A stretch of 64,000 nucleotides of DNA. Source: Bacteroidota bacterium (GTDB taxonomy: Bacteria > Bacteroidota > Ignavibacteria > Palsa-1295). The notes under the pieces were generated by a model. It saw nothing but the letters and a program-made list of their open reading frames with translations, was not told the origin of the DNA and made no database searches. Location: the NCBI GenBank assembly GCA_021324735.1, contig JAJPIO010000009.1:310001-374000 (forward strand). Direction: 5' to 3'. Positions within the stretch are counted from its first letter, which is position 1; each line of letters starts with the position of its first letter. A program made the translations under genes and the position numbers. Below, in pieces: positions 22,636-40,334 of the stretch.

Positions 22636-22682
22636 AGGCTTAGGACGAGCTGTTGAAAAAAATGACGCTCTGCAATACAAGC

Positions 22683-22716
22683 AAAAAAGCGCGGAGAGGA
22701 GTGTCCGCGCTTTTTT
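22683..22716 (-). terminator. Strong Rho-independent terminator
   Basis: A 13-bp stem including A6/T6 flanks: AAAAAAGCGCGGA / TCCGCGCTTTTTT with an 8-base loop. It lies 20 bp past the stop of the leftward 1043-residue gene and insulates it from the DUF5686 gene. Confidence 0.92.
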
Positions 22717-22735
22717 GAAATTGCGTTAATTCTGC

Positions 22736-33772: not shown

Positions 33773-33811
33773 ACAAAAGAGGTAAGGACTCAGGGTTCTT
33801 ACCTCTTTTGT
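33773..33811. terminator. Bidirectional terminator
   Basis: A 14-bp stem (ACAAAAGAGGTAAG / CTTACCTCTTTTGT) with an 11-base loop between convergent genes; T-rich on the plus side and, by the A4, on the minus side. Confidence 0.9.
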
Positions 33812-36771: not shown

Positions 36772-37860
36772 ATGAAGCAAATCTTAATTCCCATCTTAAT
36801 ACTCGTATTTCTGTTCCAAAGCAAAGTCGATGCACAAAAGAAGGTGTGGTCCGACCGGATGATGGCAACGATGGAGTATATGCAGAAGCACATGTGGAAT
36901 GCTTCGACGGGCAATTTTGTGCGCCGTGCCGATCAACCGAACGCCCCCGGAAGTGATGCATGGGGAATTACGATCGTCCTCGATGCTTATGCGTATATGG
37001 TCGAAGACGGCTTTGTAAAGCCGGATGAGCTTAAACGCTATTTTATGTCGTCTTCAGGCTTATATGAAAAGACCGGCGGCGATCATGGTGCCAGGATTCT
37101 TGCGCGTCATGGCGACCAGATCTATGTCGGCGGCGACGACGACCTTCAATGGTGTGCCGCTCTTATACACTGCTATGAAGCGACGAAAGATTCAGAGTAT
37201 TTGAATGCTGCTAAATGGGATTTCAATGCCCTGATCGATATGAATTTCTGGATCGATGGAGCATCGAAAGGTTGGGCTTGGAATTCCGCAGATCGACGAC
37301 CGAATGGTGTCAGCTCAGCGTATGGAGCGCTTGCCGCAGCCCGGCTTTATAAGGCTACGGGTGATAATACGTATAAACAGTGGGTAATTGCTGCTCTTAA
37401 GGCGCTAAACACTCCGCAGGTTGGATTTTTTCCGCGCGATATGATGGTCGCTGCCGACGCCGCCCTTACCACCTACGAACGATCGCACGACGAAACACTT
37501 CTGAGTCGAGCAAAAGAATTGGAATCGAGAGCGGTCGCTGAGGGGATGGTGTTCTTGCATCATGATGGGGAAGGCACCCGAAATCCAACGGACATTGGGG
37601 ATCTCGCCGATGGACTTTATCACTTTAGCGAGGTCACAAAGAAGCCGACGTACAAGGCGCAGGCACAGACGTTTGTCGACTTTTTCGTTGGACATCGCAC
37701 AGTAGCCGACCTTGCTGAGCATGGATTTTACTCTCGTTACGATACTAAAGGTCAGCCGGTGATGAACGGTTCGTATCTTGGCGTTCCACAATCGGTGCCG
37801 TTCCTGCCTGAGGTTGCCGAGATGCTGAAGCTCTTTGCGATCGCGTACAAATACAATTAA
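36772..37860 (+). CDS. Glycoside hydrolase family 76-like secreted protein
   Basis: A 362-residue protein with signal peptide (MKQILIPILILVFLFQSKVDA) and an (alpha/alpha)6-type helical repeat. The motif GGDDDLQWCAALIHCYEATKD matches the GH76 catalytic DDxxW sequence (Asp123-Asp124, Trp127), and further repeat blocks (YGALAAARLYKATGDNTYKQW, TYERSHDETLLSRAKELE) resemble alpha-1,6-mannanase relatives. Divergent from the NamZ-like gene; the starts are 24 bp apart, so they share one regulatory region. The sugar polymer it cuts is not determined. Confidence 0.8.
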   Translation: MKQILIPILILVFLFQSKVDAQKKVWSDRMMATMEYMQKHMWNASTGNFVRRADQPNAPGSDAWGITIVLDAYAYMVEDGFVKPDELKRYFMSSSGLYEKTGGDHGARILARHGDQIYVGGDDDLQWCAALIHCYEATKDSEYLNAAKWDFNALIDMNFWIDGASKGWAWNSADRRPNGVSSAYGALAAARLYKATGDNTYKQWVIAALKALNTPQVGFFPRDMMVAADAALTTYERSHDETLLSRAKELESRAVAEGMVFLHHDGEGTRNPTDIGDLADGLYHFSEVTKKPTYKAQAQTFVDFFVGHRTVADLAEHGFYSRYDTKGQPVMNGSYLGVPQSVPFLPEVAEMLKLFAIAYKYN

Positions 37861-37891
37861 AAATTACAATTAAAATCGCGGCACGAAAAGA

Positions 37892-37915
37892 ATATTTAGA
37901 CGGTTGTCTAAATAT
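37892..37915. promoter_or_regulatory. Inverted-repeat operator of the ArsR/SdpR-like repressor
   Basis: Perfect 10-bp arms ATATTTAGAC / GTCTAAATAT around a GGTT centre, ending seven bases before the repressor's ATG. AT-rich palindromes of this kind overlapping the promoter are the usual ArsR-family binding site, so autoregulation of the repressor plus the fusion gene is likely. Confidence 0.8.
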
Positions 37916-37922
37916 CTAATCA

Positions 37923-38195
37923 ATGAACCGTGTTTTTCACGCCTTGGATGATCCGACGCGTCGCCGGATCCTGGAATTGCTTAAAAAGCGAGATATGGCA
38001 GCGGGTGATATTGCCTCGGAATTCAACATGACAAAACCGAGCATTTCGCACCACCTCGATATTCTCAAGCAGGCTGGGTTAGTCGTGTCCGTTAGGAAAG
38101 GGCAATTTCAGGTCTACTCGCTGAATTTGACCGTCTTGGAAGAGGCGCTGTCATGGCTCATTGGTCTCAATCAAAAATCGAAACGCAAATCTTAA
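37923..38195 (+). CDS. ArsR/SdpR-type winged-helix repressor
   Basis: A 90-residue ArsR-family regulator: LDDPTRRRILELLKKRDMAAGDIASEFNMTKPSISHHLDILKQAGLV with the winged HTH and a wing (RKGQFQVYSL). It lacks the metal-binding Cys motifs and matches the SdpR subgroup, whose partner is the SdpI-like immunity/membrane protein. Here the next gene, six bases downstream, starts with exactly such an SdpI-like domain. A perfect palindrome overlaps the likely promoter. Confidence 0.93.
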   Translation: MNRVFHALDDPTRRRILELLKKRDMAAGDIASEFNMTKPSISHHLDILKQAGLVVSVRKGQFQVYSLNLTVLEEALSWLIGLNQKSKRKS

Positions 38196-38201
38196 GTCGC
38201 C

Positions 38202-40334
38202 ATGTCTCGATTCTTAAAAAATGAGTGGTTGCAACTCATCATTCTCGCCGTTCCCTTCGTCCTTATTGCGATCTTTTGGAATCAAATCCCCGACCGGGTG
38301 CCGATCCACTGGAATTACGAGGGCCATGCCGATAACTTCGGGTCAAAGGCGGTAGGATTATTCATTGTGCCCTTGGTCAATATCGGTGTTGCCGCTCTTT
38401 TGGGAGGTTTGGGTCGAATCGATCCTAAATATCTCAATATGAATGTGCCCGGTGTCGTGCTGCGACCGATCCGCTTGATCGTCACAATATTTCTAACTGC
38501 GTTATTTATTGTGACCACCTTGCCGATGGCAGGAATTCCGATCAACATAGGGGATTCAATGCAGCTCGGCTTACCGGTTCTTCTCTTTTTCATCGGTAAT
38601 TACTTGCAGACGATAAAGCCTAATTATTTTATCGGCGTTCGTACACCATGGACCTTAGAAGATCCGGAAAATTGGCGAAGGACTCACCAGTTTGCTGGCC
38701 GCATTTGGATGGCTGTGTCGGTGGTCTATATTATAGCCGTGCTTCTTCTTCGCTTCGATGTTCCCAAATGGATGTTCTGGTCCTATCTGGGCATCATAGG
38801 TGTTTTGCCGATCGCATTTTCTTTTATTATCTTTCAAAAGGGTAAAAGTACGAAGCTGGATACTCGTTCGCTCGCCATCATTCTCGTCCTGATTCTTTTT
38901 ATGCCACGGTCTTCGTCGGCTCAAGTTAATATGGCGTTGGCACCGTGGCTAACTTCTAATCTTATCCAGTCTGGGCAAAGCAATTTGCGAGCGTCTACCG
39001 ATACTTCTCTTTCGGCTCGCTTGCAAGCGGCGCTTGAAAGCACGTATCAACTAACTCCGTTATACGACAGACATGGTGTTGCTGCAAGCGTTATTGTGCC
39101 GGGTTATCCGCAATGGAGTGGGGCCGCCGGCACAAAAGATGGCCACAATCCGATGTCTGCCTCCTTAAGTTTTGAGATCGGGAGCAGTACCAAGTCGTTC
39201 GTTTCGGCTCTTATCTTCGCTCTTCGTGATGAGGGAAAGCTTTCGCTTAAGGATTCCATTCGTAAGTATTTGCCGCATTATCCGAATGTCGATTCCACAA
39301 TCACAATCCAGCAGCTTCTCAATCACTCGAGTGGTCTATACGATTATTTGAATGACGATCCGAGTACGACGCTTTTGAATGATGCCTATGCGACCGATCC
39401 TTCACACCATTGGACACCAGGCGAAATTCTTTCCGAATTTGTAGGCACTGAAAATTTTAAGCCGGGCAAAGGATACCGGTATTCGAACACCGATTATTTA
39501 CTTCTGGGCGAGATCGCTGATTCCATCGAACATCTACCGGTAAGCGAGCAGATTCATACGCGCTTTCTTGCGCCGTTGGGTCTTACACATACACTCTGTT
39601 CGTGGGATGATACTATTCCCACGAACTTCCCGCATGATTATTCGAATGCGACGGCTCAAATAGCTGCAACCGATTGGTTCGGGGTTGACAAAACGGCGCA
39701 ACTCAGTGAAACGAATGCCGCTGGTGGGATGGTATCTGTACCCGAAGAGCTTGCACGGTGGTCTCAAGCGCTATACACCGGGAAAGTATTATCGAAAACT
39801 TCAACTGCGGCGTTATTAAATCTCTCCAATTTCCATCAGCTCACCAATGGACTTCTCTATGGCCTTGGCGATGTGTTTCTTGGTTACTCGTATGATAACC
39901 AGCCTATCTTCGGGCATCCTGGATCCATGTTAGGTTTTGTCACCTTTATGCTTACCGTGCCTCATGACTCGATCTCAATGGTCGTATATCTCAACTCGCT
40001 TACCGATACGATCATTTGTGCAAATTATGTAAATGCCCTCCTGTGGGAGATCTATCATCCGGCGGCCAATAACGTAGTAGAAGCAAATCAAGCTGTGGTG
40101 TCGTCCATCTGCTATCCAAACCCATTTGGGGATCATCTTACGATTTCGCAAGGCTCGGAACAGGAAGGCGAATTCATATTATACGATGCACTCGGCAGGG
40201 AAGTAAAAAGTGCGCCTGTGTCAGCGTCTAAGCCTTCGTTTGAAATGGATACCCATGATCTCAGAGCTGGAATTTACTATTACGTGTTGCGACGCGGGGC
40301 AAACTACGAAAGAGGCCAATTGGTAAAAAACTAG
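38202..40334 (+). CDS. SdpI-like membrane domain fused to secreted serine hydrolase with T9SS sorting domain
   Basis: A 710-residue single frame with three parts. Residues 1-215 are an SdpI/DUF1648 membrane protein (QIPDRVPIHWNYEGHADNFGS, then IGVRTPWTLEDPENWRRTHQFAGR), normally a complete gene beside SdpR. Residues 219-240 form an internal signal peptide (SLAIILVLILFMPRSSSAQ). Residues 250-620 are a beta-lactamase/serine-hydrolase fold with SxxK at 328-331 (SSTK), YSN at 427-429 and HPG at 572-574. Residues 638-710 are a type A sorting domain (YPNPFGDHLTISQ). No stop separates the parts. The middle signal peptide suggests two former genes joined by loss of a stop; a sequencing error cannot be excluded. 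Confidence 0.8.
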   Translation: MSRFLKNEWLQLIILAVPFVLIAIFWNQIPDRVPIHWNYEGHADNFGSKAVGLFIVPLVNIGVAALLGGLGRIDPKYLNMNVPGVVLRPIRLIVTIFLTALFIVTTLPMAGIPINIGDSMQLGLPVLLFFIGNYLQTIKPNYFIGVRTPWTLEDPENWRRTHQFAGRIWMAVSVVYIIAVLLLRFDVPKWMFWSYLGIIGVLPIAFSFIIFQKGKSTKLDTRSLAIILVLILFMPRSSSAQVNMALAPWLTSNLIQSGQSNLRASTDTSLSARLQAALESTYQLTPLYDRHGVAASVIVPGYPQWSGAAGTKDGHNPMSASLSFEIGSSTKSFVSALIFALRDEGKLSLKDSIRKYLPHYPNVDSTITIQQLLNHSSGLYDYLNDDPSTTLLNDAYATDPSHHWTPGEILSEFVGTENFKPGKGYRYSNTDYLLLGEIADSIEHLPVSEQIHTRFLAPLGLTHTLCSWDDTIPTNFPHDYSNATAQIAATDWFGVDKTAQLSETNAAGGMVSVPEELARWSQALYTGKVLSKTSTAALLNLSNFHQLTNGLLYGLGDVFLGYSYDNQPIFGHPGSMLGFVTFMLTVPHDSISMVVYLNSLTDTIICANYVNALLWEIYHPAANNVVEANQAVVSSICYPNPFGDHLTISQGSEQEGEFILYDALGREVKSAPVSASKPSFEMDTHDLRAGIYYYVLRRGANYERGQLVKN

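Follow-up and report, generated by a model that had tools for sequence, protein, structure and literature searches.

A conserved palindrome as the putative core of an autoregulatory operator in front of an sdpR-type gene of a Bacteroidota bacterium

The sdpR gene, its neighbor and the repeat upstream

The window analyzed here, a stretch of 64,000 nucleotides from a Bacteroidota bacterium, carries a small gene for an ArsR-type protein followed on the same strand by a larger one, with an inverted repeat (P1) just upstream of both (Table 1). The small protein is recognized by the NCBIfam model of SdpR, NF033789 (124.3 bits against a cut-off of 100, with residues 4-80 aligned to positions 1-77 of the 79 in the model), and by the HTH_5 domain (61.4 bits against a cut-off of 22), which places it in the ArsR/SmtB superfamily; judged by the curated model, this 90-residue protein is an autorepressor of the SdpR family. 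Its complete lack of cysteines excludes cysteine-based sensing of metals or thiols and rules out a metal sensor of the cysteine-site ArsR/SmtB type; histidines occur only at positions 6, 43 and 44, and the metal site of CzrA is made up of histidine and acidic residues. The distribution of SdpR above the cut-off is patchy: four of 61 genomes, the source genome included, and three of the seven in the genus.

Table 1. Features of the sdpR locus (coordinates are positions in the window)
Feature	Coordinates	Strand	Description
Inverted repeat P1, putative operator core	37892..37915	.	ATATTTAGAC-ggtt-GTCTAAATAT; conserved core
Half-site 1	37896..37901	+	TTAGAC, offset 0; from alignment of loci
Half-site 2	37906..37911	+	GTCTAA, offset +10, inverted relative to half-site 1; from alignment
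Half-site 3	37914..37919	+	ATCTAA, offset +18; direct repeat of half-site 2 at 8 bp
sdpR	37923..38195	+	90-aa ArsR-type protein, SdpR family, no cysteine; domain and family models
SdpI part	38202..38846	+	DUF1648 residues 13-59, SdpI/YfhL 138-206; end at residue 215 is our choice
Hydrophobic junction segment	38871..38927	+	residues 224-242; signal-peptide-like or further membrane segment
Serine hydrolase	39063..40004	+	Pfam Beta-lactamase, residues 288-601; domain match
C-terminal type IX secretion sorting domain	40113..40331	+	residues 638-710; model match

The gene directly after sdpR matches the Pfam families SdpI (68.9 bits) and DUF1648 (63.5 bits), and its reading frame of 710 residues (38202-40334) starts six bases after the sdpR stop codon, which makes a single transcription unit of both genes likely. 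The serine hydrolase part contains SSTK at 328, YSN at 427 and HPG at 572, which would fit the catalytic motifs. By hydropathy, five segments of the SdpI part rise above the chosen threshold, and a membrane-like one lies at residues 224-242; six membrane segments have been reported for the SdpI of Bacillus subtilis in the available part of PMC11995493. An open frame that joins SdpI and hydrolase occurs in the source genome only (1/13 of the family). One match in genome G002 that reaches residue 275 contains three stops, and both the nearest hydrolase homologue (58%, in G006) and the nearest SdpI homologues (in G003 and G004) are separate genes. In the fusion frame from codon 201 on, the only ATG, GTG or TTG ahead of the ATG at codon 234 is a TTG at 202, inside SdpI; the ATG itself falls inside the hydrophobic segment. 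Since the hydrolase has no alternative start codon near the junction, the sequence favors a true in-frame fusion of SdpI to the hydrolase and its secretion tail, although a single-base sequencing error could mimic it, because a TAA lies in another frame at 38843. The model of the SdpC toxin (TIGR04032) has no match in the source genome, and only B. subtilis matched it among 14 controls; of a complete Sdp system (SdpC, SdpI and SdpR), an SdpC-type toxin is the member not found in this genome.

P1 sits in a 62-nt intergenic gap downstream of a gene that ends on the same strand at 37860. Its arms (37892-37901 and 37906-37915) are 10 nt long and 100% complementary with 4 nt between them, and seven bases (37916-37922) separate it from the ATG of sdpR at 37923; the perfect 10-bp repeat with a four-base center described by the first-pass annotation is exact. 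Perfect repeats of this kind (arms of at least 10, loop of at most 12) appeared in 41 of 20,000 sequences simulated for the 62-nt gap with a first-order Markov model; the whole window holds six of them, whereas 20 simulations of it averaged 0.9. Other repeats were seen in the window as well: two tandem 13-base copies, 92% alike, at 37849-37874 span the stop codon that ends the upstream gene, and at 33773-33811, 22682-22717 and 939-967 there are inverted repeats whose arms of 13-14 bases match perfectly and which have the look of putative terminators. A search for sigma-70-like promoters found none between 37600 and 38300, and thus none near P1.

The pattern TTTAGAC-N4-GTCTAAA has a single zero-mismatch copy in the whole 3.55-Mb genome. 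With two mismatches there are seven further places, about as many as for the reversed control pattern (6), and a second target in this genome was rejected because the exact site is present only once. The full 10-bp symmetry is particular to the source genome, the arms being different in both genus-mates that have the gene; what is kept across relatives is TTAGAY/RTCTAA with A/T flanks, rather than the full 10-bp arms.

Conservation at close orthologues and a third half-site

Upstream regions of sdpR genes were compared in a sample of the phylum (395 genomes, 42 of them with an SdpR match) and in a named set of 61 loci that reaches other phyla. The stretch from -150 to +21 of each start was scored for TTAGAY-N4-RTCTAA over its 12 positions, calling a site at 11 or more matches, and a close orthologue was defined by at least 95 bits to the protein of the window. 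A search for the palindrome at other sdpR-type genes had been proposed by the first-pass annotation, which named its absence from orthologous promoters as evidence against an operator. The half-site pattern was framed after viewing these regions, so the scores on them are partly descriptive; read in this way, the site is present in 36 of the 38 close orthologues of the phylum, window included, and in 23 of the 27 of the named set. Of the two misses in the phylum, L188 has a perfect copy just beyond the scanned stretch and L172 reaches 10 of 12 matches. The four of the named set (L047, L064, L066 and L067) show 9 or 10 of 12, and L064 and L066 retain a palindrome whose arms match perfectly around a four-base loop. 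At 70-95 bits the site is found in none of four phylum loci and eight of 22 named ones (8/26), and below 70 bits in one of 12.

Other ArsR-type genes behave differently, with no site among the 26 loci that gave a usable match out of 29 taken as controls (a set that includes L013, itself SdpR-like though distant and with an SdpI match next to it) and 10 of 12 positions matched in just two of the 26. Random pieces of the same loci reach 11 of 12 in 12 cases out of 2728, and shuffling 57 upstream regions gives 0.25 sites expected against 52 observed. Together with the simulations of the gap, these shuffles and the controls at other genes led us to reject a chance origin of P1.

The element accompanies sdpR in loci titled Bacteroidetes, Paenibacillus, Betaproteobacteria, Frateuria, Collinsella and Spirochaetaceae. 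Among plasmid loci (12 of 31 matching records), two reach 11 of 12 (L200 and L206); the six that carry an SdpR annotation (L195-L199 and L201) all fall short of it. Since distant and plasmid loci are mostly without it, the exact element marks a branch of close orthologues, not all genes named SdpR. In L195 and L199 the spacing appears kept and the letters changed, as judged by eye only; the first of these, a Staphylococcus simulans plasmid, encodes SdpR, SdpI and an annotated toxin of the sporulation-delaying-protein family, with an upstream grid that looks degenerate by eye. Repeats sought irrespective of their sequence in 25 motif-less SdpR loci (L188 having been removed by hand and five plasmid loci added) show an enrichment of even loops, with nine loops of 4 observed against 1.28 expected and odd loops observed zero to two times, and these repeats are not all one site. 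A separate case is that of L074 and L077 (Ktedonobacter), where perfect palindromes with arms of 19 and 21 bases and no loop stand upstream of the SdpR-like gene.

Alignment of the loci also brought out a third half-site. RTCTAA, with at least five of its six bases, occurs exactly 18 bases after the start of half-site 1 in 55 of 61 aligned loci, and from offset -30 to +49 no position other than the two arms and +18 exceeds 8/61. The last four bases of half-site 3 fall outside 37892-37915, an interval that the first-pass annotation drew correctly for the palindrome and too short for the conserved element, which runs to 37919. When both sets are summed (68 sites, no two of them identical over 80 bases), half-site 3 is kept in 61 at the threshold of at least five of six bases, and a flanking half-site exists on one side or the other in 64; half-site 3 is absent from seven, and four have no flanking half-site on either side at this threshold. 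The arrangement is mirrored in G007, with the three-part pattern on the strand opposite to the gene, and in L049 and L065 every position of the grid (-8, 0, +10 and +18) is occupied by a half-site. The same four-half-site grid is found with TTTGAT in L067 (titled Thermoanaerobaculia), as a repeat with 13-bp arms upstream of sdpR.

The sites can also be set beside the proteins, in a descriptive comparison with no statistical test. TTAGAY sites pair mostly with a conserved recognition-helix region, (T/S)KPSISHHLDxL, and proteins with (S/A)QPTLSHHLDIL have other repeats upstream, which resemble TATATGTA in L010 and L070 and are less clear in L009 and L013. The Ktedonobacter loci L074 and L077, with TRSLLSHHLTIL, have TTTCAAT palindromes, and most other loci of Ktedonobacter type have no clear site. 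The gammaproteobacterial L072, L073, L078, L079, L084 and L086 have the helix region xxASLSHHFAVL, yet their sites are near to TTAGAY.

At the scale of genomes, the three-part pattern was searched in 40 that have close orthologues; for 39 of these, completeness is 90% or higher and contamination 5% or lower. This set comprises 38 of the 42 genomes with an SdpR match plus G003 and G004, leaving out G024, G029, G271 and G335 (60-81 bits). Of the 35 places found, 32 are at sdpR, one each in 32 genomes, and three lie away from it (two in G353 and one in G103); eight of the 40 genomes have no exact three-part match, and the reversed control pattern gave 12 matches in eight of the 40. With 32 of 35 places there, the three-part site is nearly confined to sdpR in these genomes.

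The gene order is conserved too. SdpI is encoded no more than 700 nt from sdpR, and on its strand, in all 38 close orthologues of the phylum and in 26 of the 27 of the named set. A hydrolase match within 1500 nt is the case of a minority, two of the 38 (window included) and two of the 27; a separate serine hydrolase gene stands directly 3′ of sdpR-sdpI in G007, Flavobacterium enshiense and F. amnicola (L005, L051, L059).

A proposed autoregulatory switch

The autoregulation of the repressor and the fused gene, as suggested by the first-pass annotation, gains support from the conservation at orthologues, the 32 of 35 places at sdpR, the SdpR model and the order of the genes. We consider it highly probable (roughly 0.88) that P1 is the core of the SdpR operator and that SdpR would repress its own unit, composed of sdpR and the SdpI-hydrolase gene.

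Other readings of the same element deserve consideration. A repeat placed directly 5′ of a start codon could act as a hairpin in a leader RNA, through translational control or attenuation, and a perfect 10-bp stem would be possible if it were transcribed; however, pairing is lost at the variable arm positions (18/68 at 5/10 and 23/68 at -1/16), the conserved third half-site falls outside the stem, and just two of the ten stem pairs are G-C, with no terminator-like site found. Arm positions 6/9, -2/17 and -3/18 are nearly invariant over the 68 sites and say nothing about pairing. Such a hairpin is highly improbable, and we rejected it because pairing is not preserved where the arms vary. Neither is the association of a site with a gene a proof that the product of this gene binds it, and AbrB, for example, also represses sdpRI in B. 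subtilis according to the available part of PMC1626106. Nevertheless, another regulator of sdpR-sdpI would need to travel with sdpR across the phyla where P1 accompanies it, and would have the three-part site at sdpR in 32 of its 35 places in 40 genomes, which makes this possibility very unlikely.

A third reading takes the conserved sequence as mainly a promoter element that is palindromic by accident. The -7 box of Bacteroidota is TAnnTTTG, and a core nAnnTTTG close to it occurs in 32 of the 68 sites, the full box in none of them; a TTTG some 19-21 nt upstream, counted separately from these cores, is present in 17 of the 68. The element is found outside Bacteroidota as well, and in the genomes searched other genes do not generally carry it, two observations against a promoter element that leave this reading extremely improbable.

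For an operator bound by SdpR, we infer the following course of events. One SdpR dimer would sit on half-sites 1 and 2 (37896-37911), and half-site 3 (37914-37919) would probably recruit or stabilize a second one, the operator being perhaps bound by more than one dimer. SdpR at its operator would block RNA polymerase, since the site immediately precedes the start codon, in the region that should hold the promoter and the start of transcription; in some relatives, such as the 17 of 68 with the upstream TTTG, the site overlies promoter-like elements. A low basal expression would keep a little SdpI in the membrane, and an envelope signal engaging SdpI would then lead to the capture of SdpR at the membrane, by analogy with B. 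subtilis. The operator thus freed would allow more repressor, SdpI and attached hydrolase to be made. The inducer of B. subtilis is not simply transferable to this model, because the SdpC toxin model found no counterpart in the source genome.

A more complete picture, which we regard as tentative and rather less probable than its opposite, would combine two proposals: a conserved, asymmetric operator of 24 bp, retained by one branch of the family in different phyla, whose three half-sites keep constant positions (0, +10 inverted, +18) and which takes up two SdpR dimers at overlapping sites to act as a single-promoter switch, and an SdpI that is here a receptor-enzyme fusion, sending a serine hydrolase to the surface upon envelope attack. 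The fixed third half-site offers a testable prediction on the number of repressor dimers bound. An operator that is almost always single per genome and located at sdpR, as in the 40 genomes, would moreover provide a direct reporter for the SdpI signal, useful in Bacteroidota and others, and the operator helps to separate close SdpR genes from other ArsR-type genes.

Comparison with known Sdp and ArsR-type systems

Autorepression by SdpR is itself already known. In B. subtilis, SdpR is likewise an autorepressor of ArsR type whose gene forms a two-gene operon with that of SdpI, which captures the repressor at the membrane (available parts of PMC1626106 and PMC3210768); differently from that system, no SdpC-type toxin was found here, and SdpI shares one reading frame with a serine hydrolase and its secretion tail. 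A paper of 2025 presents the B. subtilis SdpI as the sole characterized member of its family (PMC11995493, available part). No sequence of an SdpR operator was found in the available parts of PMC6818787, PMC1626106, PMC3210768, PMC11995493 and PMC4746229. Neither an operator of the three-part form nor any of six exact 16-base forms of the site was found in the open-licence literature searched.

The SdpR of Nocardia terpenica, likened to ours by name, also binds the promoter of its own gene, where two sites were footprinted, but its SdpR box (from MEME) has 14 nt, it binds the promoters of an antibiotic cluster too, and SdpI goes unmentioned in the available text (PMC12185567). Rv2034 of Mycobacterium tuberculosis is another ArsR-type autorepressor, and its own gene is likewise immediately preceded by a palindrome with 4 nt between the arms, half of this palindrome being enough for weaker binding; its half-site is, in contrast, CCGTAAGT, and no third one is described in the available part of the report (PMC3338718). 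Finally, the rhizobial NolR is a global regulator of symbiosis whose site differs in spacing by about one base, with no link to SdpI described in the part available, but it shares with SdpR the ArsR fold and a TTAG half-site, in the form (A/T)TTAG-N9-A(T/A), for which a DNA-bound structure exists (PMC8960804).
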